Shown here: positions 4,056 through 58,446 of the stretch, one piece after another
Layout of the letters: each line of letters begins with the position of its first letter
Numbering within the stretch: position 1 is the first letter of the stretch
Assembly (NCBI RefSeq): GCF_000760295.1
Contig: NZ_JNBA01000018.1
Coordinates: 1 to 58,446, forward strand
DNA: 58,446 nucleotides
Reading direction: 5' to 3'
Source: Prochlorococcus sp. MIT 0701
Lineage (GTDB): Bacteria; Cyanobacteriota; Cyanobacteriia; PCC-6307; Cyanobiaceae
Program-made: the position numbers and the translations under genes
The notes under the pieces: generated by a model
Told to the model about the DNA's origin: nothing
Database searches by the model: none
The model's input: the letters and a program-made list of their open reading frames with translations, nothing else

Positions 4056-7000
4056 ATGAAGCCCAATTCTGAAATGTCTAATCAAGTACCAACCAACCCG
4101 GAAAACGGCAGAAGGGTCTTAACCGTTATTCACAACAGCGACGAGGTAACCAACCCCCAATATGACGAAGAATGGCAAGGCAGCCTAAGAGAAGCTCTGG
4201 CCTACACGCAGGCAAATCATTACGAAGGCGGATATGAAATTGTATTCAGAGATCCTGGTAGCGCTTTAAAAGGAGATCAATTCGAGAGCAGCCCATTGGG
4301 CATTGGATACTGGACTATTAAGTTAAGAGATACTCTGCCAAATATATATCGTGGGGATATACTTATCAATCCAAATTCATGGATGAATATATCGCTTGTC
4401 CCAGAGAGTCTTCAGGTGCCTGGCGCTGGTGCCAAGTTGAGCGCTCAAAGGTTAGGAAATAGACAACGTGAACACCATACACTTGGAGCAGGATCCTCCG
4501 TATTGGTTGTCGGCGATGGTAGACATATTGATCAGGAAACGCACGGGCTAGAACCTGCAGACGAAGATCTCAAACTAGAATTAAATCGAATTAACTTTAT
4601 TGGTAACACCGCGAGAGGATCGAACGGTGCTGGCGCGGGGGCAGGAGGGGGTGCAGGAGCAGGAGGCGCAATTTTACTTATTGATGGTGATTTAACGATC
4701 AGTGATTCAGTCTTTCAAACATTAAGAGCAAACGGTGGAGACGGACGACGTGCTGCGATCGGAGGGTGGCCTGGATATGGTGGATGTGAGTGGGAATCAG
4801 GATCGACAGGAGATAATGGTGGAGCTGGAGGTAATTTTTCAACACCTTTACATCGTAAAAATGATGACGAAGGTAATGCTGGTTATTTATCGTTTGCAAA
4901 TCCTCCAGCTGGAGGCCAAGGTGGAGCGCCGGGTGCTGGGGTAAAACGTACTGATCGGTACTCTCATAAAGCCGATATAACCGGGGGGAGCGGTAGTAAC
5001 GGGGAGTCGGGGGGGAGGCTAATGGGCTACGGAGGAGGAGGAGGAGGAGGTGGTGGTGGTGGTGGTGGTTACTACTCAGGCGCTATTCCTGGCTCCTGTA
5101 GTGGTAACATTGGTGAAGGAAGTACTGGTGCAGGAGGCAAAGGCGGTAGCGGAGGTTTATTTGTAACCGAAAAGGGTGGGGGTGATGGTGCTAGAGGCAG
5201 ATTAAATACAGGCGAAAGAGATGTTGGTGAGAATGGTCTCGGCTATGGAAGTGCAATTGCCATAATAGGAAACCATTATGGACGCGTACCAAATCTATAT
5301 CTGAATCGTACTGATTTTATCGATGTTGGCGATGGAATGTCAAACGCAATATATGCAAATAATGAAGACAAAAAAAGAATTTTTACAGCTGATTCTGGCT
5401 TTGGCAATGCCCCTCATCCTACAGCTGATGAATCTCATGATCTCATTGATGAATATGAGCAATATCCAGATGCGATTAAATCAGATACTCAGAAAATAGA
5501 CGGAACATTTCCTTTTGTGCAACTTGTATCAACTCCGCGTAACTCAAATGTAGTTGATGCCAGGGATACTGTCGTTGAAGCAAGAGATAATATTAGCGAT
5601 ATTTTCATGGTTGCATATGAAGAACAGGAAACAGTCGTTGGAGTTCATTCAGATCTGTCGGATCCCAATAATCAAATAAATGAAATCTGGAGGAAACTTG
5701 TTCCTAACAGAGAAGAGGAGATAAATGCTGAATATGATTCGTATCTGGCGGGAAGCGAATTTAGCCTTCCAGATTTCCTATGGGAACAGAGTAAAAATGT
5801 CATCAAGGCCGGATGTGAGATGGCGGGTAAATCAAAAGCGGGGTGGGTTGGCAGTAAAGCGGCTGGTATCGCCTGTGGTAAAGGTTTTGACTTTCTAGAA
5901 GATGCATTATGGGCAGCCAACAAAAGAAGCAATATTGAAAAGCAAAGGAGTGCTGCCTTGGATGGGAATAATTATGAGCAGGCTCAATTGCACGATTATC
6001 TTCAAGAACGATCAGACGTCAAGGTTGGTCAGGTTGATATTAAACTAAGCCGCACACGTAATACTATTAAAAACTTTGCGTTGGGTGAAGATGTTTTAGT
6101 GCTACCTCGTGGTAAAAACAAAAGAATTCTGGTTTATACGACCTCCTCAGGAGAGGGCCATATGGAATTCAGTCTTGCATTTGACACGACTAGCAATACT
6201 GACTATCCCTTTATCACGGTTGAATTATCAGATGATAGTGCAGATGCCATCAGTACTAGTCAGAGTGCGCTTACCGACTATGTTGGAGATCTGCTAGCTG
6301 TAGTCAATGAAGATTCAAATGAAGAGCAAAGTTACACTGTTTTAGGGCAATCTATGCCTGGCAGCAAAATAGCCGATAGTAAAAATGTTGGTTATTATTC
6401 TGGGCCTGCTTCGACTCATATTGTTGTTGATCGTAGCAACAACGATCTTGCTCTGGATGATATTGTTAGAGTACAGTCATCTCTTGGGAATGATTTTGTT
6501 GTTGGAACAGATGGTAAAGAAGATATAAATACAGGCAAGGGGCATGATTATATTTTCCCTGTCTTTGGTTCTGACACAGTGAATGGAGCTGGAGGAGAAG
6601 ATATCGTTGATTACCGCTTATTGCGTGCGGCACTTACATTTATTAGTGAAGATGGCAACGTCTCTAAGTTGAAAGTAGAAGGCAGCTCGGAAGATGAACC
6701 GCATACTAGCCGCGCTATCCCAGGACGTCATCCTATTGAAGTTAATGAAGATGATTACGAAGGTAAAGAAGATGAAGAGCTAGATTTTGAATTTAAGGAT
6801 TATGAAGTTGATGCAACCCTCACGAATGTAGAGGGAATCAATGCGTTTGCAGGAAGTTATGTGGATTTTAGCGAGCTTCCTGATCCTTCTAACAGTGGAA
6901 TGGGTGTGTACAAAGCGACGCTTGGTTCAGGCTCTACCTTTAAAGGTAGTAAATATGCGGATTATGTGGAAATCAATTTTAGCGATTTTTATAATTCCTC

Positions 7001-7682
7001 TGTAGATAAAGCCTATAACTATAAAAGTTTTACTAATCTTGAGGGTGGTGGAAACAGCTCTAGCGAAGACGAGGAGAACAAGGATTATCTTTTTGTTGAT
7101 CTAAGTACTTATCAGGGCGATGATGGAGACCTTAGTGTGATCTACAGGAAAAAAAAGGACGCGTGGTACATTTATAATGAAGAGAAACCGATTCTTAAAG
7201 CTACAGGTTTTGAATTGAAAGAGTTTAAAGGGGGCGAGACAGACGAATTATTCAGTTTCACAGGCTCATCGCTAAGCCATCGTCACGAGGCTGGAGCCGG
7301 TGACGATGTTGTAATAGGTGGTAAAAAAGCGGATCAGCTCTTTGGGAATGAGGGCTCGGATGACCTTGATGGTGGGCCTGGCTCCGATACGTTGACAGGA
7401 GGGAGCGGCAGTGATGTTCTCTTTGGTGGCAAGGGCTCTGATGTGATGCGTGGTGGCGCAGATGCAGATACTTATCGATTAAGTAGTGGTAATGACATTA
7501 TCCTCGATTTTACTTCGGAATTGGATGTCATTAAGGCTTCAAGTATTCCTGAACTCGAGCAACGGGAAAGTGGCGTACTCTTGTCTTATTCGGGGGGGGA
7601 GACACTGCTGCTGAATGTTACACTAAACAAAGTGGAAGATTGGCTAACGATGGAAGCTGGAGGCCTTGAAATCCTTGCCTGA
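4056..7682 (+). CDS. Large RTX (haemolysin-type Ca-binding) beta-helix protein
   Basis: 1208 residues. Residues about 15-75 have the GSLREAL...YEIVF pattern that opens right-handed beta-helix adhesin-like proteins. Residues about 188-390 are extremely Gly-rich, including a run encoded by GGA/GGT triplets. A first RTX-like nonapeptide group lies at about 808-855 and the main group at about 1078-1135 (GxGxDxLxGGxGxD pattern), with a C-terminal tail rich in D, I and L. RTX proteins fold on binding calcium outside the cell and usually leave by type I secretion through an uncleaved C-terminal signal; there is no N-terminal signal peptide here, which fits. The protein is acidic, as expected. No type I exporter is nearby. 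Role as surface or secreted adhesin/S-layer-like protein is inference. Start: ATG 4056; another ATG (codon 7) is possible. Confidence 0.8.
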   Translation: MKPNSEMSNQVPTNPENGRRVLTVIHNSDEVTNPQYDEEWQGSLREALAYTQANHYEGGYEIVFRDPGSALKGDQFESSPLGIGYWTIKLRDTLPNIYRGDILINPNSWMNISLVPESLQVPGAGAKLSAQRLGNRQREHHTLGAGSSVLVVGDGRHIDQETHGLEPADEDLKLELNRINFIGNTARGSNGAGAGAGGGAGAGGAILLIDGDLTISDSVFQTLRANGGDGRRAAIGGWPGYGGCEWESGSTGDNGGAGGNFSTPLHRKNDDEGNAGYLSFANPPAGGQGGAPGAGVKRTDRYSHKADITGGSGSNGESGGRLMGYGGGGGGGGGGGGGYYSGAIPGSCSGNIGEGSTGAGGKGGSGGLFVTEKGGGDGARGRLNTGERDVGENGLGYGSAIAIIGNHYGRVPNLYLNRTDFIDVGDGMSNAIYANNEDKKRIFTADSGFGNAPHPTADESHDLIDEYEQYPDAIKSDTQKIDGTFPFVQLVSTPRNSNVVDARDTVVEARDNISDIFMVAYEEQETVVGVHSDLSDPNNQINEIWRKLVPNREEEINAEYDSYLAGSEFSLPDFLWEQSKNVIKAGCEMAGKSKAGWVGSKAAGIACGKGFDFLEDALWAANKRSNIEKQRSAALDGNNYEQAQLHDYLQERSDVKVGQVDIKLSRTRNTIKNFALGEDVLVLPRGKNKRILVYTTSSGEGHMEFSLAFDTTSNTDYPFITVELSDDSADAISTSQSALTDYVGDLLAVVNEDSNEEQSYTVLGQSMPGSKIADSKNVGYYSGPASTHIVVDRSNNDLALDDIVRVQSSLGNDFVVGTDGKEDINTGKGHDYIFPVFGSDTVNGAGGEDIVDYRLLRAALTFISEDGNVSKLKVEGSSEDEPHTSRAIPGRHPIEVNEDDYEGKEDEELDFEFKDYEVDATLTNVEGINAFAGSYVDFSELPDPSNSGMGVYKATLGSGSTFKGSKYADYVEINFSDFYNSSVDKAYNYKSFTNLEGGGNSSSEDEENKDYLFVDLSTYQGDDGDLSVIYRKKKDAWYIYNEEKPILKATGFELKEFKGGETDELFSFTGSSLSHRHEAGAGDDVVIGGKKADQLFGNEGSDDLDGGPGSDTLTGGSGSDVLFGGKGSDVMRGGADADTYRLSSGNDIILDFTSELDVIKASSIPELEQRESGVLLSYSGGETLLLNVTLNKVEDWLTMEAGGLEILA

Positions 7683-32179: not shown

Positions 32180-33187
32180 ATGATTCGTTTGCCTCGCCTG
32201 GCTCCACTTCTTGGTGCCGCTGCTCTCTCGGCAAGTATCACAGCAGCATGCACACCGCAGTCACAGACGGCACCTACGGAGAAGGAAGTAAGCAGCGCAT
32301 TAGTTAATAATGTTGTACTGCCTAGTTATCAAAAACTTGTAGCTGCAACAGAGAATCTTAAGGAGGATCTGAACAAGTTCGCGAAGGACCCTACCGACGC
32401 CAACCTTGAAGCCGCCCGCAAGCAATGGAAGACTACGCGTAAAACATGGGAAATAACAGAAACCTGGGCCTATGGTCCAGCCGAAACAGATGGTTTTGAC
32501 CCCAATCTTGATGATTGGCCCGTCAGCAGAAAGGAGCTGGCCCAAGCCTTAGATGAGAGTAACTTTTCCAAAACAACCTTTGCAGACCTCGACACAACTG
32601 GACGAGGCTTTCACGGAATTGAATATGTTCTTTTCGGCGATGGAGGTCAAGCTGTTTCAGCAGCTTCAATGACTCCTCCACAATTGCTATATCTTCAAAT
32701 CGCCGGTGAAGACCTCGAGCAGAATGCAAAAGGTTTGCTTGCCGCATGGAGTGGAGACGAAGGCTTTGGCAAAGCCGACGTTGAGGCCGATCCAAGCAAA
32801 ACTGTCAGTGACATCCTTGAAGGGATGACCGGCTGTTTAGATGAGGTTGCCAATGGCAAATTAGGAGCAGCCCTTGAGGCAGGCAAAGACGAACTAGAAA
32901 GCACTTTCAGTGGCAACACCGGATCCGATGTAGTTTCAAACCTAAAAGGAGTGCGGCTTGCATGGAAAGAGTCCAAGCTGCAGGCTCTTGTTAAAGCCCA
33001 AGATGAAGAGATCGCAAAAGCATTGACTGATCAACTGAATGCGGCCATTGACCTTGCCAAAGCACTGCCTAAAAGGCTTAACGACAAGATCGATGATCCG
33101 GCAACACGTGAACAGATCGAGGATCTCCAGGCGGCGATCATGGCCGCATTAGAAACCACTACTGCTGTATCAGAAAAGATAGGATAA
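32180..33187 (+). CDS. Imelysin-family (M75-type, IrpA-like) lipoprotein
   Basis: 335 residues. Lipoprotein signal with lipobox-like S-I-T-A-A-C (Cys about 24). Imelysin fold markers: an N-terminal helical repeat with W-x-x-T-R-x-x-WE and Y-G-P, then the GxHxxE motif in GFHGIEYVLFG (about residues 145-155). Members are periplasmic or outer-membrane-anchored, iron-regulated proteins tied to iron uptake (IrpA of cyanobacteria, ICMP); the peptidase role is doubtful. Followed after 42 bp by a di-haem oxidoreductase, a pairing known from iron-regulated operons in other bacteria. Confidence 0.88.
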   Translation: MIRLPRLAPLLGAAALSASITAACTPQSQTAPTEKEVSSALVNNVVLPSYQKLVAATENLKEDLNKFAKDPTDANLEAARKQWKTTRKTWEITETWAYGPAETDGFDPNLDDWPVSRKELAQALDESNFSKTTFADLDTTGRGFHGIEYVLFGDGGQAVSAASMTPPQLLYLQIAGEDLEQNAKGLLAAWSGDEGFGKADVEADPSKTVSDILEGMTGCLDEVANGKLGAALEAGKDELESTFSGNTGSDVVSNLKGVRLAWKESKLQALVKAQDEEIAKALTDQLNAAIDLAKALPKRLNDKIDDPATREQIEDLQAAIMAALETTTAVSEKIG

Positions 33188-33229
33188 TTTTTTAATTATA
33201 TATTGAAATAAAGATGAGATGATTGAATC

Positions 33230-34564
33230 ATGAGATTCATTTTTCTCTCAAAATTACTTCTGGGATGTCTGGCCCTTCTAGTCGCAGTTGGGTTTGGCAT
33301 CTCATTCAAGTTAGTGCGTCCCGTATGGGCAGGTGATCCACATCGCCCCGCCGGTGACATGACTGTTTTCAACCGCTCATTTGGTTCCTTTGAAACAACA
33401 GCTGACGGACTAACCAAGGCTGAGTTTGATCGTCATACTCAAACAGACCCCCTTTTCGAGCAGAAGCATGTTCCCCTTGATGGACATGTCGGTGCAGGCC
33501 TGGGACCTCTTCACAATGCCAAATCATGCTCCTCGTGCCATGTCCTAAACGGCAGAGGAAAACCAATCGCTGGCCAATCTCTCTTCAGAGTTGCGATGCA
33601 AGAAGGAGGTGGTAATCAACCAGTTCCTGAGATTGGCTTCCAACTGCAAGACAAAGCAATCTTTGGTCACAGTCCTGAAGCAAAAGTTGAACGAAACTGG
33701 ATAGAAAAAGACGGCCTACGTCAATTAAAGACTCGCATCACTCAACCCGATGGCACCGAGCTCTCAGAGGAAACCATGGCCCGATCACTGCGCATCGCAC
33801 CACCAATGATTGGCATTGGCCTGCTGGAAGCCATCCCAGAAGACGACGTGCTGGCTAATGCAGATCCAGACGATCATGATGGTGACGGAATCTCTGGTAG
33901 ACCCGTTTGGACCATCGACAGCGATGGGGAACGCCGCATTGGCCGATTTGGCTGGAAGGCAATTGCAGCCAGCGTGAACCAACAGAGCGCTAACGCCTAC
34001 CTCGACGACATGGGACTGACAACGGCAACAGGGCCGGATAGCACCATGGCTGCTGATGGGAGCCCGGCAGATATCAGTTGGGAAGACCTTGATGGGGTGA
34101 GCTACTACACACAGACTCTCGGAGCACCAGCCACAGCCGAAGCATCTCACAGCCGTGTAGTCAAACAGGGATCAGCACTCTTTGATCAACTTCAATGTGC
34201 TAGCTGTCACGTGCCCAGCCAGCGCACAGGGAACAATCAACAGGCAGTGGCAAAAGTCATCAACGACCAAGCAATCTGGCCTTACACCGACCTTTTACTT
34301 CACGATATGGGTCCTGGCCTCGATGACGGTGTGGCTGAAGAAGGTCTTAGCCTCTCAACGGAATGGCGAACTGCCCCTCTGTGGGGATTGGGAATGACCC
34401 AGAGGGTTAATCGCAAAGCAAGCTTCTTGCACGATGGCCGGGCACGCAGCATCGAGGAAGCGATCATCTGGCATGGTGGCGAGGCTAAAACTGCCCAGCA
34501 GCGCTATCAGGCCTTGCCGCAAAGGCAGAAGGATCAACTATTGGCTTGGCTCAAACAACTTTAA
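33230..34564 (+). CDS. Di-haem oxidoreductase (DHOR family, 'thiol oxidoreductase')
   Basis: 444 residues. N-terminal signal/anchor helix (LLLGCLALLVAVGFGISF). Two c-type haem sites: CSSCH near residue 100 and CASCH near residue 322; further H-DG-R-A-R-S-x-EEAI-x-WHGGEA motif at about 400-420 is characteristic of this family, related to di-haem peroxidases. Acts in the periplasm. Together with the upstream imelysin it probably belongs to an iron-acquisition or iron-oxidation unit; precise reaction unproven. Confidence 0.88.
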   Translation: MRFIFLSKLLLGCLALLVAVGFGISFKLVRPVWAGDPHRPAGDMTVFNRSFGSFETTADGLTKAEFDRHTQTDPLFEQKHVPLDGHVGAGLGPLHNAKSCSSCHVLNGRGKPIAGQSLFRVAMQEGGGNQPVPEIGFQLQDKAIFGHSPEAKVERNWIEKDGLRQLKTRITQPDGTELSEETMARSLRIAPPMIGIGLLEAIPEDDVLANADPDDHDGDGISGRPVWTIDSDGERRIGRFGWKAIAASVNQQSANAYLDDMGLTTATGPDSTMAADGSPADISWEDLDGVSYYTQTLGAPATAEASHSRVVKQGSALFDQLQCASCHVPSQRTGNNQQAVAKVINDQAIWPYTDLLLHDMGPGLDDGVAEEGLSLSTEWRTAPLWGLGMTQRVNRKASFLHDGRARSIEEAIIWHGGEAKTAQQRYQALPQRQKDQLLAWLKQL

Positions 34565-34673
34565 AGAAAAACGCGATCTAGCTTGAGATGCTGCCTTGCT
34601 TGAAGCAAGAACACACCATCAATTACGCCAATCACTCTCATTAGCGGTTACTATTGAGAAATGCATTGCAGAG

Positions 34674-35156
34674 GTGGCCTTGCCTACTTCTTCGTCCCTG
34701 GCCCGTATCCATGGACAACTTGAGGTTGGCTTGCATCAGGGTGGTCGACGTTTAACGCCTCAAAGACGCCGCGTTCTTGATCTCTTTGAAAGTATTGGTT
34801 CTGGCATTCACCTCAGTGCTGAAGAAGTCCATCGGCAACTTCTAGAGGCAAACTCAAGGGTGTCTCTAGCAACGATCTACCGCACGCTGCGCTTGCTTGT
34901 CGAGATGGGCTTTCTACACGAGTTGGAAATAAGCGATGGCGGACATCGCTTTGAATTAGCAAGTCACGACCACCCAGATCATCACCATTTGGTATGCGTG
35001 CGTTGTGGTCGTACTGAGGAGTTTGAGAGTAAGCCAGTACTGGAAGCTGGACGCTCTGCTGCTGAGCGAATCGGGTTCCAACTGATCGAGTCAACATTGA
35101 ATGTACGGGCTCTATGTCCGTCTTGTCAGAGACCCTCGACAACCAATGTCCATTGA
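34674..35156 (+). CDS. Fur-family metalloregulator
   Basis: 160 residues from GTG 34674; the frame is open to a TTG at 34596, which would give 186 residues, longer than usual. Winged helix (LTPQRRRVLDLFES...SAEEVHRQLLE...VSLATIYRTLRLLVEMG, about residues 22-88) followed by the dimer domain with the metal-binding H-D-H-P-D-H-H-H stretch and two Cys pairs, CVRCG and CPSC, for structural zinc. It could sense iron, zinc or peroxide; the sequence alone does not decide. It lies 109 bp after the di-haem gene (stop to GTG) on the same strand, so it may regulate that group. Confidence 0.88.
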   Translation: MALPTSSSLARIHGQLEVGLHQGGRRLTPQRRRVLDLFESIGSGIHLSAEEVHRQLLEANSRVSLATIYRTLRLLVEMGFLHELEISDGGHRFELASHDHPDHHHLVCVRCGRTEEFESKPVLEAGRSAAERIGFQLIESTLNVRALCPSCQRPSTTNVH

Positions 35157-35172
35157 TAACTGATGATAAACA

Positions 35173-35652
35173 TCAGTGCTGAGAATGCTGATCACACGGC
35201 ATCCAGTGGGTTCCCATCTGGTGAGCGCCTTTGCATCCCAACTCCCGTGCCTTCGCTTCGGCCTCTAATTGAGTGGGGTAAGCCATCAACCGAGGGTCCG
35301 TTTGCGACGCAGACTTGCCGCTTACGGGAAGGTGATGCTGATGGGGATTTTCAATCTCCGATCCACCCAAAGACACCAAGCCCATGCTTATTGGACCTGC
35401 CGTCCACACTCCCATGGTGCTTACACCAACACTTAGCAAGCCCATCCCAACGACAGAAGCATTGATCACCCCCATAGCAACCACGCCAATGGAAACAACA
35501 CCCATGGGAACAACACCAATGCAAACCACTCCCATTGGAACAATACCGATCGAAACTGTGCCTAAGGGAGCTATCCCAATAGCCAGCTTTTTCGGTTTGC
35601 TCCCGCAGTGTGCTGATGCTTTGTCATCGCCAGTTTGATCAGCAGTGTTCAT
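35173..35652 (-). CDS. Pentad-repeat protein with C-terminal DUF3721
   Basis: 159 residues. Residues 26-97 consist of about 14 strict five-residue units with Gly at every fifth position (G-V-V-P-M / G-V-V-S-I type; only position 66 is Ser), all hydrophobic. Such periodicity predicts a very regular beta structure or a membrane-packed stack; it is not the usual A(D/N)LXX pentapeptide repeat. Residues about 119-155 match DUF3721: F/Y-x-T-x-x-EAEA-x-A...GC-x-GAH-x-MG-x-x-WMPC-x-x-H, with Cys and His likely to bind metal. Start overlaps the stop of the upstream DUF3721 gene (ATGA). Confidence 0.7.
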   Translation of the reverse strand: MNTADQTGDDKASAHCGSKPKKLAIGIAPLGTVSIGIVPMGVVCIGVVPMGVVSIGVVAMGVINASVVGMGLLSVGVSTMGVWTAGPISMGLVSLGGSEIENPHQHHLPVSGKSASQTDPRLMAYPTQLEAEAKARELGCKGAHQMGTHWMPCDQHSQH

Positions 35653-35933
35653 GGATTGTGTTGAGACTCCATTTGAATGCCGTGCTTGTCACAGACCATC
35701 CACATCTGACCCATCTGATGGGACCCCTTACAACCAAATTGTGGGGCGGCAGCTTCTGCCTCAGCTTGAGTTCTAAACATCGCCTGCTTCGGTTCAGTAG
35801 CTGATGTTTCAGCAGCGTTGATCCCTACTTCGCTCATTACAACTGTCAATCCAGTCGTTGCAGCAATCAAAAGTAGCGATCCACTTAATGTAGTTGAGGC
35901 TGATCGGCCCATGAGCTCCATCATTTCCACCAT
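35649..35933 (-). CDS. DUF3721 protein with membrane anchor
   Basis: 94 residues. One hydrophobic helix at about 16-36 (signal or anchor), then DUF3721 at about 51-88: FRTQAEAEAAAPQFGCKGSH followed by QMG-x-x-WMVCDKH. The paired Cys and His may bind metal. It overlaps the downstream pentad-repeat gene by 4 nt, so the two are coupled. Alternative starts at codons 4, 5 and 8. Confidence 0.75.
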   Translation of the reverse strand: MVEMMELMGRSASTTLSGSLLLIAATTGLTVVMSEVGINAAETSATEPKQAMFRTQAEAEAAAPQFGCKGSHQMGQMWMVCDKHGIQMESQHNP

Positions 35934-36383: not shown

Positions 36384-37382
36384 TTAACCGATCTCTCCCT
36401 CAGATCGAAGGGCGCCTCCACAGCTTGATCCATTGCCTGCAGTGCAACCAAAACAATGAGGGCCAACAGTGATTGGTTGACCAGGCCATTGAAATTCGCT
36501 TTCCAGCAAGTCCCTAAGGTGATGAACAGGCCCCTTAAGGTGAAGACTCAGTTGCTGGTTGAAATCACAGTCAAAAAGCTGGCCCTGCCAATTCACACTG
36601 ATCAAGCTTCGGCACATAACCGTTTTTAGATTATCGGGATTATGAGCACCTTCAAGAAGCTGCTGATAACTCTCTCGCTGGCCGGACATGCTCAACTGTG
36701 TAGCGAAACGTTGAATCGGCATGTTCGCTATCGTGAATAATCTGGTGAATTCGATGCCATACCGTTTTTTCAGCTCTTTACGATAGGCCTCTTCTAATTG
36801 GGCTTGAGGAGGAGGCAGATGAGGACCCTGGGGGTTAAAAATCAAGTTAAGAATTAGTTGCTCATCGGATTGCCCATAACCAAGTTGATTCAACTGACGT
36901 AAACCAATAAGGCTGCGTTCAAACACTCCTTGACCACGTTGTTGGTCTACATTCTCAGCCTCGTAACAAGGCAGAGAAGCAACCACAGTGACACGTTGTT
37001 TTGCAAGAAAAGCCGCTAGGTCTTCCTGGCCTGGCTCAGTGAGGATGGTTAGGTTGCAACGATCGATAACCTCCACACCCAAACATCTGGCCTGAATGAC
37101 CAAATCCTTAAATCCTGGGTGAAGCTCGGGAGCTCCACCGGTGAGGTCAAGACATCCCAGCTGGTATTGATCCAACACCTTTGGTATCAAGGCCATGGTT
37201 TGCGGATCCATCATTTCCAGACGGGTCGGTCCTGCATTCACATGGCAGTGGGCACAGCTCTGGTTGCATCGGTAACCAAGGTTGACCTGCAAAGTACTTA
37301 GGTTGTCCCGATGCAGCTCCGGGAAAACCTCAGATCGAAACGCAGTTGCTGACGTGTCGTGAGAAGGCAACACAGAAATCAT
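36384..37382 (-). CDS. arsS: Arsenosugar biosynthesis radical SAM protein ArsS
   Basis: 332 residues. The radical SAM cysteines are at 39, 43 and 46 in CNQSCAHCHVNAGP. The family pattern continues with LDLTGGAPELHPGF, LPCYEAENVDQQRGQGVFE and LNLIFNPQGPHLPPPQ, and ends with the C-terminal cluster CFGCTAGNGSSCGG. ArsS moves the adenosyl group of SAM to dimethylarsenite on the way to arsenosugars. The partner methyltransferase ArsM, usual in this pathway, is not in the window. Length normal; ATG 37382. Confidence 0.92.
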   Translation of the reverse strand: MISVLPSHDTSATAFRSEVFPELHRDNLSTLQVNLGYRCNQSCAHCHVNAGPTRLEMMDPQTMALIPKVLDQYQLGCLDLTGGAPELHPGFKDLVIQARCLGVEVIDRCNLTILTEPGQEDLAAFLAKQRVTVVASLPCYEAENVDQQRGQGVFERSLIGLRQLNQLGYGQSDEQLILNLIFNPQGPHLPPPQAQLEEAYRKELKKRYGIEFTRLFTIANMPIQRFATQLSMSGQRESYQQLLEGAHNPDNLKTVMCRSLISVNWQGQLFDCDFNQQLSLHLKGPVHHLRDLLESEFQWPGQPITVGPHCFGCTAGNGSSCGGALRSEGEIG

Positions 37383-38073: not shown

Positions 38074-39279
38074 TCAACGAGCTGAACGACGTTCAGCAAG
38101 TGACCTAAACCAAGCCACGTATGTGCTGGGGCCGCTAGGAACCAGTACATCAAAATGCAGGGGATCCTCAGGATCACTAATTCCTTGCAGGTGTTCATCT
38201 CTAAGGCTGGGTCGGTATACTTCACCGCCACTACTATCCACAAGAACCACTCGATTGGGACGGTTATAAATCGTACCTAAATCCTGTAACAAGGTAAGAA
38301 AACCGCGGTCGCTTCCGCCACGTAACCATCCGGTTCCATCAGGAGATGGATTGGATGTAACCGTATCACCCACACCCATCAAAAGTGGCATCTGATCAAC
38401 AGGAATACGCTTGCGGCAGAGATCCAACAATCCCTGATGAGTCTTAGGCGCTGAACGCACATCAAAGTCTTTGCCTAGAGGAGCTTTGCCTTTGTGTTTA
38501 GCGATATGCTTGTTAATCAAAACTAATAGTCCGGCTTCCTTCACAGCACCTTGGAGCATGAACTGGATATCAGTGGTGCCTACATCACCAGGGGCAGCAG
38601 GCTTGAGTCTCTCCAGTTGTCCATCACAACCCATATTGGGAGCAATATGCAGAAAAAACGAATTAGGAAAGCCAGCACTTATGGCACTATTAATCAATTC
38701 ATTCATCAACTCCTGCAGCATAATTTGCAGGGATTGCTGAATGCCGACATCGTCAGGAGTCAGGCTAAACAAGCCATTCAAGAGAATTGTGGGCGATAGC
38801 TCTGTATCAAGAACTGACATCTTTGCGAGGATTTGGATCTCCTCAGAGGTGCGCTGGGGTAGCAATGCATGGAGACGCTGTTCAAGCAAGGTCTGCATTC
38901 GGCTAGGCAGTGCAGCAAGAAAGGCAATTTCTGCATCACTAATACCGGGATGACTGATCTCGCCATAACAATTCTGGAGTTGCACACCGCCTGCGGCTAA
39001 TCCCGGTAAGTAGAGGCCCTGCTTAGCCGGCAGCTGGGGATCACCCAAAGCTCTCTCGACTACACAATTGACTCCACGATGTCCGCCATGCTCTCCATTG
39101 GTAAGCACAGAGAAAGACCCCTCAAGCCTTTTGGCTGCCCATACGTAGGAAGGATCCAAAACTCTCGTCAGAGGATCCTTGACAAGGGGGATACAAACGC
39201 CGTCAAGATCCTGAACGATCAAGAGGTCTTCAGTACTGACCATCTCAGACAAAAGCTGATCGAGGTCGATGTGGCCCAT
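38074..39279 (-). CDS. stpA: Glucosylglycerol-3-phosphate phosphatase StpA
   Basis: 401 residues. The phosphatase motif D-L-D-G-V-C-I-P-L-V near residue 24 and the pattern LVKDPLTR, L-T-NGEHGGHRGVN and G-VGDTVTSNPSPDGTGWLRGGSDRGFL fit StpA/GgpP, which removes phosphate from glucosylglycerol phosphate to yield the compatible solute glucosylglycerol. Length is close to known StpA proteins (about 420). The synthase GgpS is not in the window. Divergent from a GpsA-like gene across 325 bp, which likely holds salt-regulated promoters (inference). Confidence 0.85.
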   Translation of the reverse strand: MGHIDLDQLLSEMVSTEDLLIVQDLDGVCIPLVKDPLTRVLDPSYVWAAKRLEGSFSVLTNGEHGGHRGVNCVVERALGDPQLPAKQGLYLPGLAAGGVQLQNCYGEISHPGISDAEIAFLAALPSRMQTLLEQRLHALLPQRTSEEIQILAKMSVLDTELSPTILLNGLFSLTPDDVGIQQSLQIMLQELMNELINSAISAGFPNSFFLHIAPNMGCDGQLERLKPAAPGDVGTTDIQFMLQGAVKEAGLLVLINKHIAKHKGKAPLGKDFDVRSAPKTHQGLLDLCRKRIPVDQMPLLMGVGDTVTSNPSPDGTGWLRGGSDRGFLTLLQDLGTIYNRPNRVVLVDSSGGEVYRPSLRDEHLQGISDPEDPLHFDVLVPSGPSTYVAWFRSLAERRSAR

Positions 39280-39604
39280 GTTTCGTTGATATGGCCGGGT
39301 CTACACACCTTCCCACGTTGGGGACGATGGGCCAAGTCACTGACATGGAAACGCTTTGGCTAGCGGCTAGTAACTAGTGAGCAACGATCATTGATGCGAG
39401 GACAAAGTTCAGCTGTTTGTTGAGCAGATCCTGATTGAACTAAAGGCCACAAAAGCTGTCCGGTCTGAAGAGAAGGTGCTCGAATTATCATAGAGATTAA
39501 ACGTTTTAATATGCTGATATGCAAATTTCCATTTTCCTGAGATCAGCCGCATCCGTAGGGTTAAAGAAGACAACAACAAATCTGCATAGAAGCAAGGAGG
39601 AGTG
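39280..39604. other. Divergent promoter region stpA / GpsA-like gene
   Basis: No gene. Ends with AAGGAGG at 39594-39600, an unusually strong ribosome binding site for a picocyanobacterium, 4 nt before ATG 39605. Confidence 0.6.
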
Positions 39605-41116
39605 ATGAACAACAGTTTTTTCACCAAGTCCCTAAATCCGGAGTTGATTCAAAACAGAATTAGAGCACTGGAAAATGGCAATGTAGGGTTCTACAGCGTG
39701 GGGCTTTATCCTGCCTCACTGGCATACAACTGTGCGATGCAAACAGCTGGTGTCAGCTTATTGCTTGCCCCGCGTCCAGAACGGGAATTGCTGGGAGCCT
39801 TTCCAGAGGGTTCATTGGATGGAATGGATGAGGCCCATATTGCATCGGTTGTAAAGATGGGCACACATATAAAAGCTGGGGTTCGTGTCACAAACACACT
39901 GGCTGATCTAATTGAACGCTGTGAACTCGTCGTCCTCAGTGCGAACAGCAACCATGTGGAGCTAGACCTCGAGGAAGCATGTCGACTACGTAAGGAGATG
40001 AAACGAGAACAGGTTGTTCTAGCTTGTCTAGCCGGTTCCTTCTCTCATAACCAGATCAATAATGAATCGTATGTCCTATGTGAAAAACAACCAAATCTAG
40101 CTTTCTTCTCAGGATTTCACCGCCATGGAGCATTGCGAAATCCGTTTGATAGCTTCACGGCAAACTTCTGCCATCCAAATGCACTGACAGCAATGCTTGG
40201 AGCTCGAATGCTGGATCGATTATCACCCAACATACAGGTTTCATCAGGTGTTCACAATATTGAAGGGCAATATATCAAAGCAGCAAAAAATATGGCATCA
40301 ATATTTGCAGGGTTTGGTTATACATACCACCATGATAATCCAGGCGTACTTCCAACTCTACTGACCTTACTTTTAGATCAGTGTCTTGATCAAGCTGCCA
40401 CAGTGTCGATGTGTAGAAATGATCGTCAGGGGCTCTACAATCAACAACCATTTTCATTAACGGAGCTTGGTTACGGAGTGCAGCGCATTGAAGCCGCATT
40501 GGCTCGAGATGGGGAGATGGAAAAGGTGCGAGATCACACCTTTGCACAACTTACTGCCATGGTTGCAGATGTTAGGGGCAGCATGATGCTTCCGGTTTGT
40601 GGCAAACCTACGCGTAACTTTCAAGCTGGGCAAATACTCGCTAAAAAGATGAAAGAAGAACAGCGCTGCCCCCATCAAATGGAAGAATTTGAAGAATGGT
40701 GTGAGTCGGATGGGCTACAAAAGGGAGGGTTAGAAGGCTTAAAGTCTCTACGTTATTGGCCACAAATTGTTCGTAATTACTCTATCCCTCTGCATGATTC
40801 ATCAATGGTGAATCTTTTATACATGTCTATCTATGGAAATCAATCTACCAAAGGAGTTGCTTATTCTGTGATGACAGAGAGTCGTGAACTCACTAATTAC
40901 TGCCAGGAATCTGTCAGGCCAACCCATAGCCGCAGATATGCCGAAGCTCTGCAGAATCTTGACAACCAAGAGGCTATAGACCTCATCGTTAATGCAGTGA
41001 TTGCCGACAATGGACGACGTGCAATACGGGATGATTCATTCCTTAATGATACGGAGTCAGTAGACAAGATACCTGCTTATCTCAAGGCGATGAATGTAAT
41101 CGAGTCAAGCCTATAA
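39605..41116 (+). CDS. GpsA-like dehydrogenase-family protein of unknown substrate
   Basis: 503 residues from ATG 39605, chosen because AAGGAGG lies 4 nt upstream (a GTG one codon earlier is too close). N-terminal Rossmann-like part (V-G-F-Y-SVGLYPASLAYNCA, then a beta-strand VSLLLAPR) without a perfect GxGxxG. The segment HNIEGQYIKAAKNMASIFAG (about 221-240) with its Lys-Asn resembles the catalytic Lys helix of glycerol-3-phosphate and 6-phosphogluconate dehydrogenases. Long extra C-terminal part. Next to stpA it could act on glycerol-3-phosphate, the precursor of glucosylglycerol (inference). I am not certain of the family. Confidence 0.6.
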   Translation: MNNSFFTKSLNPELIQNRIRALENGNVGFYSVGLYPASLAYNCAMQTAGVSLLLAPRPERELLGAFPEGSLDGMDEAHIASVVKMGTHIKAGVRVTNTLADLIERCELVVLSANSNHVELDLEEACRLRKEMKREQVVLACLAGSFSHNQINNESYVLCEKQPNLAFFSGFHRHGALRNPFDSFTANFCHPNALTAMLGARMLDRLSPNIQVSSGVHNIEGQYIKAAKNMASIFAGFGYTYHHDNPGVLPTLLTLLLDQCLDQAATVSMCRNDRQGLYNQQPFSLTELGYGVQRIEAALARDGEMEKVRDHTFAQLTAMVADVRGSMMLPVCGKPTRNFQAGQILAKKMKEEQRCPHQMEEFEEWCESDGLQKGGLEGLKSLRYWPQIVRNYSIPLHDSSMVNLLYMSIYGNQSTKGVAYSVMTESRELTNYCQESVRPTHSRRYAEALQNLDNQEAIDLIVNAVIADNGRRAIRDDSFLNDTESVDKIPAYLKAMNVIESSL

Positions 41117-56769: not shown

Positions 56770-58446
56770 TCAGGCAAGAGTGGTGAAGTCGCTGATGTTG
56801 AACTGCCCATCACCACCGAACACAACATCAAAACCAGGGCTGCGTGCAATGACCTGATCAGGAGAGGCCCCACCACGAAGAAGATCGGACGCAGCACCAA
56901 TCAAGCTCTGCTCACCAGAACTATCGCTGGATAATGCCCAGAACATCATTCCACCCAGCTCAGCGGCATCGACGTAAGCAGCCTTGCCGGCAATTGTGCT
57001 TGGTGTCTCGATCGAACTCCAGATCTGCTCCTGGTCGTTGTAGAGATAAGCAGCCTTGGCATCGTCGTCCCAGGCAAGGTCATAGGAGCCATTATTGATG
57101 CCGGTAACAAGATCCTTCTGGTCATAATTGCCAGCCTCATAAGAACCGGGAGCAGAGTTTGCAGAGCCCAGCTCGCCATAACCCAGCTTTTCACCACTCT
57201 CGACGCCACCCCATGCCCTCGTGTATGTCGGTGCTCCCAATACCACCTTCTCGGGGGCAATTCCAGCATTTCTGAACTGCTGAATGGCAGTCACAACGTC
57301 ATAACCACCAGCATCAGCCGTCATCGCAGCCTGGTGTCCTGTAACAGACTCCCAGCCGCCATGGAAGTCATAGGTCATGACATTATAAAAATCGACGTAA
57401 GCATCAATTGCCGGCAGATTGAGATTAGCCAGCTTCTCTTGACCTCCCGCGGTAGCAATTGAGATCTCGTAGTCCTCGCCGGTGCGAGTCTCGAGGAGAT
57501 CCATCTTCTGACGCAAAACCTTCAGCGTCGCCGCGAAGTTGGCGCCGTCCTGATCACTGGAAGCATTACCGCTAAGACCACCACCACCTGGATACTCCCA
57601 GTCAAAATCGACGGTATTGAAGAAGTCGTAAGTCTCGAGGGTTGTAATGACGTTGTCAGTAAACCGTTCACGGCCGGCCACATCATCGAGGGCAAGGCTG
57701 AACTCGTCTGACAAGGTCCAACCACCAAGGGCAAGGCCAAGACTAATGTCAGGGTTCAGCTGCTTCAAAAGGGCAAACTGACGCAGGTTGCCTGCAAGCT
57801 CATCGTTGACGTCCCAGCCCACGGGTACACCACTCACGCTCACGCCTCCATTCCCATTGGTACGGGTCGTAAAATCAGAACCATCCGTATAGCTGGAGCG
57901 ACGTGAATCGTCCAGGGCGGCCCACTCGTCGGCACTAAAGGTACGGCTAACTTGCTCCTCGGCGCTGTAACGCTTGTCGATGGCAGCCCAAGAATCAAAA
58001 AGGTTGACATCTCCATTTGCCTTAACATCGAAAAAGGAGTAGTTGATGTGGGTCAAGTCTTCGACATTGATGTCTTGCACCAAAAAGTCTCGGGAGTAGA
58101 TACCCCATTCTTCGAAATAGCCCACTATCCGCTTAGACCCATCTGCGATGGCCGTAGAAGACACCTCCAACAGATGCGCGTCGTCGTTGGTCCCTGGCTC
58201 AGGCTCAAAATCTGTGGTCGGCTCGCCACTAGACGTCTCAGACTCCAGAGGCTGCATAGGATCCGCCTCAACAGTGATACCGCCTGATGGCATCTGTGTC
58301 TGACCGTCTGCAAAGAACAGTTCGCTGTTCAAACTGCCACTATTTGGCAGACCCACGCTCTGCGCGTTGAAACTCACCTCAATACTCTGGCCAATTGCGA
58401 TGCTCTGGTTCCAGGACGCAGGTGTCAATGTGATCCGGTTGGTACC
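56770..58446 (-). CDS. GH18 chitinase, partial (N-terminus beyond the window)
   Basis: 558 codons are present; the frame is still open at the right edge, where T-L-T-P-A-S-W-N-x-x-IA-x-GQSIEVSFNA matches the end of a family-2-type carbohydrate-binding module. A Pro/Glu/Ser-rich linker follows, then the GH18 domain: KRIVGYFEEWGIYS, INYSFFDV, GLALGGWTLS and the catalytic FNTVDFDWEYPGGGG with the proton-donor Glu. The classical motif has Gly where this has Thr (D/N-G-x-D-x-D-x-E). The C-terminus ends GGDGQFNISDFTTLA. A secreted enzyme that cuts chitin; Prochlorococcus LLIV and some Synechococcus are known to degrade chitin. Confidence 0.93.
   Translation of the reverse strand, partial: GTNRITLTPASWNQSIAIGQSIEVSFNAQSVGLPNSGSLNSELFFADGQTQMPSGGITVEADPMQPLESETSSGEPTTDFEPEPGTNDDAHLLEVSSTAIADGSKRIVGYFEEWGIYSRDFLVQDINVEDLTHINYSFFDVKANGDVNLFDSWAAIDKRYSAEEQVSRTFSADEWAALDDSRRSSYTDGSDFTTRTNGNGGVSVSGVPVGWDVNDELAGNLRQFALLKQLNPDISLGLALGGWTLSDEFSLALDDVAGRERFTDNVITTLETYDFFNTVDFDWEYPGGGGLSGNASSDQDGANFAATLKVLRQKMDLLETRTGEDYEISIATAGGQEKLANLNLPAIDAYVDFYNVMTYDFHGGWESVTGHQAAMTADAGGYDVVTAIQQFRNAGIAPEKVVLGAPTYTRAWGGVESGEKLGYGELGSANSAPGSYEAGNYDQKDLVTGINNGSYDLAWDDDAKAAYLYNDQEQIWSSIETPSTIAGKAAYVDAAELGGMMFWALSSDSSGEQSLIGAASDLLRGGASPDQVIARSPGFDVVFGGDGQFNISDFTTLA

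Follow-up and report, generated by a model that had tools for sequence, protein, structure and literature searches.

Without sn-glycerol-3-phosphate (G3P), bacteria make no glycerolipids via the PlsX/PlsY route. The described systems closest to the one considered here are the GpsA/GPD1 family of glycerol-3-phosphate dehydrogenases (GPDHs), recognized by the Pfam domains PF01210 and PF07479; GlpD, a flavin adenine dinucleotide (FAD)-dependent flavoprotein unrelated to the GPDH-fold family; and the Dunaliella salina enzyme DsGPDH (Protein Data Bank [PDB] entry 6iuy), which we take to be a glycerol-producing fusion of a HAD phosphatase to a GPDH. Here we describe a gene for a 503-residue protein, divergent from stpA, in a 58,446-nucleotide stretch of Prochlorococcus sp. 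MIT 0701 (contig NZ_JNBA01000018.1; this whole stretch is hereafter the window). With a probability of about two in three, we propose that this protein is an NAD(P)H-dependent GPDH that has diverged strongly and is the de novo source of G3P in marine picocyanobacteria that lack GpsA. The proposal is based on the modeled fold, invariant residues, distribution, and gene neighborhood, from which we infer that the protein is catalytic, what its substrate and cofactor are, and in what order the evolutionary events took place.

A comparison of genomes (PMC3369817) lists EC 1.1.1.94 (glycerol-3-phosphate dehydrogenase) as lacking an annotation in its Prochlorococcus strains and in WH7803. According to the later survey PMC9361551, a FAD-type G3P dehydrogenase (glpA) and glycerol kinase occur in marine strains, the FAD enzyme also occurs in brackish strains, gpsA belongs to freshwater strains, and glucosylglycerol genes are linked to marine ones, a scheme that leaves genomes with none of these G3P enzymes unexplained. 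PMC12997750 reports that glpK and glpD are missing in some Synechococcus groups. Within the accessible parts of the open-access literature, subscription papers being outside this scope, we found no gene assigned to the missing Prochlorococcus G3P dehydrogenase step.

The two genes at the center of this analysis diverge from each other, as the preliminary description had it, with 325 bp between them in the list of open reading frames for the window:

39605..41116 (stop codon included), plus strand: the 503-residue protein with a predicted GPDH fold, a candidate GpsA replacement
38074..39279, minus strand: stpA (ggpP), glucosylglycerol-phosphate phosphatase family, with a DxDG motif at residues 24 to 27

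The 503-residue protein matches no Pfam family at an E value of 1 or below, PF01210 and PF07479 included, and neither Pfam nor NCBIfam recognizes any further domain in it. Its best NCBIfam model is the GpsA model NF000942, at an E value of 0.03 and 13.5 bits against a cutoff of 257, while searching the PDB with phmmer and with profiles yielded one chance match and none, respectively. Because sequence-only homology searches were unproductive, the resemblance of this protein to GPDH rests on its predicted structure. The AlphaFold model, built with 20 homologues, has a mean predicted local distance difference test score (pLDDT) of 80.3 and a predicted template modeling score of 0.80, with residues 286 to 314 and 474 to 487 poorly predicted, and shows a two-domain GPDH fold across residues 22 to 435. 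The top 12 rows returned by Foldseek were all GPDHs, and when VIA-align was used to reexamine the matches that Foldseek itself had returned, the top 16 entries were again all GPDHs (Z of 28.3 to 22.3 over 298 to 330 residues), with ketopantoate reductase as the next family at a Z of 14.9. Coxiella GpsA (3k96) aligned over 310 residues with a Z of 28.3, a root mean square deviation of 3.0, and 13% identity, and the GPDH portion of DsGPDH matched with a Z of 27.9. The preliminary description had called the protein GpsA-like and named the absence of a dehydrogenase fold as what would refute it. The likeness is very clear by fold but nearly invisible to sequence profiles, and comparison of the model with GpsA finds the dehydrogenase fold, specifically that of GPDH. 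Such a match between a model and solved structures speaks of a common fold and is no proof of function.

Conservation within the family strengthens the comparison with GpsA. From 112 sequences, comprising those of the loci compared and that of the window, we dropped identical and X-containing entries to leave 84 distinct homologues, the most distant of which is 48% identical to the window's protein. Eight residues are invariant in all 84: K228, N229, D322, S326, R337, N338, E377, and G378. Matched against a canonical cyanobacterial GpsA modeled in the same way (pLDDT 91.4), they correspond as follows:

40286..40291, plus strand: K228-N229 codons; this pair corresponds to K160-N161, the catalytic Lys and Asn of GpsA
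40568..40570, plus strand: codon of D322, equivalent to GpsA D213, at a similar spot near the end of a helix
S326, four residues after D322: equivalent to GpsA T217, also near the helix end
40613..40618, plus strand: R337-N338 codons; this pair corresponds to R224-N225, the Arg and Asn of GpsA that bind the substrate phosphate, and the Arg opens a helix in both models

In both models the Lys-Asn pair lies 10 residues into the helix that follows the last Rossmann strand, and E377-G378 correspond to GpsA E250-G251, with the Glu opening a helix in each. A profile-profile alignment by hhalign recovers the registers of the Arg-Asn and Glu-Gly pairs independently, though not significantly. The protein thus resembles GpsA/GPD1 in its two-domain fold and in the order and structural places of the K-N, D, S/T, R-N, and E-G residues. 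In GPDHs, the R-N, K-N, and D/S residues hold the phosphate and the carbonyl. Two further invariant residues, R57 and R60, come right after the second strand and might hold the phosphate of NADP.

By its defining features, however, the protein is not a member of the GpsA family, because three of them are missing: it is not recognized by the family models, the second active-site lysine is lost, and SxGxxP replaces GxGxxG. Also unlike GpsA/GPD1, it carries the poorly predicted stretch at 286 to 314 and about 60 additional C-terminal residues. We regard it as a putative new, diverged GPDH variant and the best candidate for a known metabolic hole of Prochlorococcus.

The distribution of the gene complements that of GpsA. 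We surveyed 251 genomes of the organism's taxonomic family, using a family profile for the 503-residue protein and PF07479 for GpsA, whose presence is clear-cut because all matches score at least 138 bits. The 503-residue gene occurs in 127 genomes and GpsA in 110; 103 have only the former, 86 only the latter, 24 both, and 38 neither. When the survey is restricted to 167 good-quality genomes (completeness of 90% or more, contamination of 5% or less), the gene is present in 99, GpsA in 87, both in 21, and neither in 2, so that 78 of the 80 good-quality genomes without GpsA carry the 503-residue gene. The exceptions are G098 and most probably G017, the latter identified from its rounded completeness of 90%; the contig of G098 ends inside stpA, and that of G017 ends about 90 bases past the stpA start, where the divergent gene would be expected. 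PF01210 likewise has no match in the window's genome (2.59 Mb, 99.98% complete) and matches in all 14 control genomes.

Other routes to G3P were also sought. GlpD, detected by its DAO_C domain (PF16901), is present in 90 of the 251 genomes; the window's genome gave no match, enzymes of the GlpA type without DAO_C not having been searched for. Among the 78 good-quality genomes with the 503-residue gene and without GpsA, 38 give no GlpD match either, the window's genome among them. These 38, with 10 more for contrast, were searched for glycerol kinase (GlpK), glucosylglycerol-phosphate synthase (GgpS, TIGR02398), and PlsY, the acyltransferase that consumes G3P. Neither GlpK nor GgpS was found in any of the 38, whereas each was found in 7 of the 10 contrast genomes (GlpK at 528 to 587 bits, all under the curated cutoff of 590). 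PlsY is present in 37 of the 38, including the window's organism, the exception being G263, which is 92% complete. Since all but one keep PlsY while GpsA, GlpD, GlpK, and GgpS were not found, these 38 genomes appear to need G3P without any usual route to it. The reaction proposed for the 503-residue protein involves the same substrate pair as GlpD, and the two genes share a cluster in strains like Synechococcus RCC307, but GlpD was not found in the window's genome or in 37 others of the 78.

StpA itself is a secure member of its family. The 401-residue protein scores 683 bits against TIGR02399 (cutoff, 365.5) and 564 bits against PF09506, and D24, D26, and G27 of its DxDG motif are invariant in all six aligned sequences; the search for a relative of solved structure gave one chance match only. 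The window's genome has no TIGR02398 match, and a role for StpA after GgpS there is not borne out. StpA accompanies the 503-residue gene in 125 of 127 genomes, in 86 of which the two genes are divergent and less than 1 kb apart, with 22 more divergent within 15 kb. In Synechococcus RCC307 and its relatives, the order is ggpS, the ggt transporter genes, the 503-residue gene on the opposite strand, stpA, an alpha-amylase family gene, glpD, and glpK, so that in glucosylglycerol clusters the 503-residue gene is located between ggtA and stpA. The names ggtA to ggtD are our assumption, assigned from gene order and similarity to components of sugar ATP-binding cassette transporters. This arrangement is whole in five loci (L088, L089, L128, L139 [RCC307], and L147) and is cut by a contig end in two (L137 and L138). 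At 24 other loci, nearly all non-picocyanobacterial, no gene family common to at least four loci was found near the 503-residue gene, nor any stpA within the fetched flanks.

The phosphatase gene is also retained where GgpS has no match, in 38 of 38 such good-quality genomes (for example, G021, G003, and G082). According to PMC11505929, Prochlorococcus MIT 9303 carries ggpP but not ggpS and does not produce glucosylglycerol, and the authors suggest that such a ggpP may act on sucrose phosphate.

The preliminary description had also placed the supply of G3P beside glucosylglycerol synthesis. That idea fits the conserved residues, the complementarity with GpsA, and the position of the gene in the clusters of other Synechococcus, including RCC307. 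The link to glucosylglycerol thus holds for RCC307-type relatives, and it probably held in the ancestor; in the window's organism, however, the feeding of this pathway is unsupported because GgpS was not found in its genome. There the demand for G3P is more likely to come from membrane lipids, since PlsY is present.

In the mechanism that we propose, dihydroxyacetone phosphate would be taken from the Calvin cycle, and the GPDH fold would carry out its NAD(P)H-dependent reduction to G3P. R337-N338 would bind the phosphate, K228 would polarize the carbonyl, and H172 or R173 may stand in for the lost second lysine. The product would pass to PlsY and, where it exists, to GgpS. The gene probably originated as the dedicated G3P supplier of a glucosylglycerol cluster, as in Synechococcus RCC307 today, and its enzyme probably became a housekeeping one for membrane lipids later. 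In Prochlorococcus like that of the window, ggpS, glpK, and glpD were not found, and the 503-residue gene and stpA would be what is left, still adjacent.

A number of observations weigh against this proposal. The hhalign comparison with GpsA is not significant (E values of 0.12 to 0.13), and the residue equivalences come from motif order and secondary-structure register rather than from a printed structural alignment. The position of GpsA K77 (presumably K120 of the human enzyme) is residue 143 here, which is A in 72, S in 9, and V in 3 of the 84 homologues; GpsA N107 is replaced by H172, part of an invariant His-Arg-His (172 to 174); and the dinucleotide motif GxGxxG has become S31-x-G33-x-x-P36, with S31 and G33 in 83 and P36 in 81 of 84 (one partial row is gapped, and two have A at 36). 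Because these three elements are replaced, the substrate or the cofactor may differ. In the survey, the 38 of 251 genomes with neither gene include G098 (94% complete), G017 (90%), and 19 others of 53 to 88%, these completeness figures covering 21 of the 38. Because 24 genomes hold both genes, the two proteins need not be interchangeable. The Fisher P value for their complementarity, 2.9e-16, overstates independence, because the pattern tracks phylogeny and, probably, salinity. G007, counted here among the genomes lacking GpsA, contains a 453-residue frame that matches PF01210 weakly (26 bits) and PF07479 not at all, and 8 of 133 StpA genomes lack the 503-residue gene, 3 of the 8 having GpsA. 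The GlpD negatives cover DAO_C proteins only.

These points bear differently on the alternatives. That the protein is a GPDH-fold dehydrogenase with another substrate or direction, for example acting on a phosphorylated ketone in osmolyte metabolism with StpA while an unrecognized enzyme makes G3P, seems to us rather unlikely, although it would account for the lost lysine, the His-Arg-His in place of the GpsA loop, and the altered nucleotide motif, and for an association with StpA that is tighter (125 of 127) than that with the absence of GpsA (103 of 127) and that holds in all 38 genomes without a GgpS match. Set against it are the retention of every R-N, K-N, and D/S residue, the fact that GpsA and the 503-residue gene complement each other almost completely in good-quality genomes, and the lack of any GlpD or GlpK match in the 38. 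A related reading, which we hold to be doubtful, is that in ggpS-less Prochlorococcus the dehydrogenase makes G3P and StpA has been repurposed to act on G3P or on a G3P-derived sugar phosphate, which would explain why an orphan phosphatase stays beside the 503-residue gene where glucosylglycerol synthesis has been lost. By analogy, and equally doubtfully, this two-step module might be a split counterpart of the algal fusion: in DsGPDH, too, a HAD-type phosphatase is joined to a GPDH in the context of an osmolyte, but here the phosphatase and the GPDH-fold protein have a gene each, the two being divergent, and StpA is of the glucosylglycerol-phosphatase family.

Alternatively, the gene could have no link beyond glucosylglycerol and marine salinity and persist as a lineage marker, the match to missing GpsA being a by-product of the marine-freshwater split. 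In several lineages it is part of the glucosylglycerol cluster, which fits such an account, as does the link that PMC9361551 makes between gpsA and freshwater strains and between glucosylglycerol genes and marine ones. A relic should decay, however, as the gene apparently has in two GpsA-bearing genomes (G095 and G234, where assembly error is possible), and in the 38 genomes without a GgpS match it is intact and conserved, which makes this account very unlikely. It is still more improbable that the protein lacks catalytic activity and instead senses G3P, as the preliminary description allowed, or the redox state. The degenerate SxGxxP motif and the extra helical region past residue 440 would suit a sensor, but the active-site residues do not vary across the 84 homologues, and no other domain appears in Pfam or NCBIfam. 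A diverged GPDH that makes G3P remains our favored reading.

The broken or interrupted copies in G095 (C3:16048-16858) and G234 (C198) accompany canonical GpsA and are as expected if GpsA makes the 503-residue gene dispensable. Beyond the family, a draw across the phylum found the gene in 39 of 339 genomes, 1 of the 39 lying outside the taxonomic family, and the carrier search yielded 59 loci in all, picocyanobacteria included. Non-picocyanobacterial carriers comprise Pleurocapsales (Xenococcus, Hyella, Waterburya, and Myxosarcina), Acaryochloris, Zarconia, Lyngbya confervoides, and Leptolyngbya, which are mostly marine. In a tree of 52 rows, thinned from the 84 homologues, their sequences are nested among marine picocyanobacterial ones, a placement that suggests gene exchange between lineages; we draw no direction from it, because a number of the deep forks are weak and G021 sits on a very long branch. 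Phage carriage was considered and rejected: none of 50,697 phage records matched, and 43 pattern hits among viral contigs included no relatives. Four contigs titled as gammaproteobacterial metagenome-assembled genomes (L122, L123, L125, and L140) hold picocyanobacterial copies of the gene and are probably misbinned, since two have the usual radical S-adenosylmethionine (SAM) and stpA neighbors and one has stpA alone.

Two features lie upstream of the 503-residue gene:

39594..39600, plus strand: Shine-Dalgarno sequence AAGGAGG, 4 nucleotides upstream of the ATG at 39605
39280..39604, no strand: the 325-bp divergent intergenic region between stpA and the 503-residue gene

The reading frame has two in-frame starts, GTG at 39602 and the ATG at 39605 that gives 503 residues, and we prefer the ATG because its spacer to AAGGAGG is 4 nucleotides rather than 1. 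The unusually strong ribosome binding site of the preliminary description was confirmed, this being the only gene with a match of at least six bases directly upstream among 32 window genes chosen from the list of open reading frames, with starts as listed there. The heptamer AAGGAGG, which that description called rare in this lineage, occurs at about the level of chance in the window (9 observed against 7.8 expected from shuffles). A match of at least six bases is present in 3 of 48 distinct orthologue upstream regions, the window's gene counted among the 3, and because all three carriers (L001, L002, and L004) belong to one genus, we regard the strong site as a feature of a clade and not of the gene family. 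No sigma-70 promoter was found in the divergent region, where 0.7 would be expected by chance, and no Rfam family matched between 36300 and 42000.

Other genes of the window deserve brief mention. Downstream of stpA, a radical SAM protein with DUF3641 (36384 to 37382, minus strand) is the same neighbor seen in 27 of 43 picocyanobacterial loci compared. Two neighboring small genes at 35173 to 35933 (minus strand) have a common short DUF3721 motif, the first also with GLTT repeats. An imelysin (Peptidase_M75), a di-haem oxidoreductase, and a regulator that looks by eye to be of the Fur type follow one another at 32180 to 35156 (plus strand) and are perhaps an iron-responsive unit. A likely chitinase of glycosyl hydrolase family 18 lies at 56770 to 58428 (minus strand), and a 1,208-residue glycine-rich protein carrying RTX calcium-binding repeats is encoded at 4056 to 7682 (plus strand).

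Should the 503-residue protein indeed produce G3P, it would close a gap in the core metabolism of the photosynthetic organisms that are most abundant. It would also be a case of an osmolyte gene assuming a housekeeping step, and it would represent a class of GPDH with a rewired active site that current family models miss.

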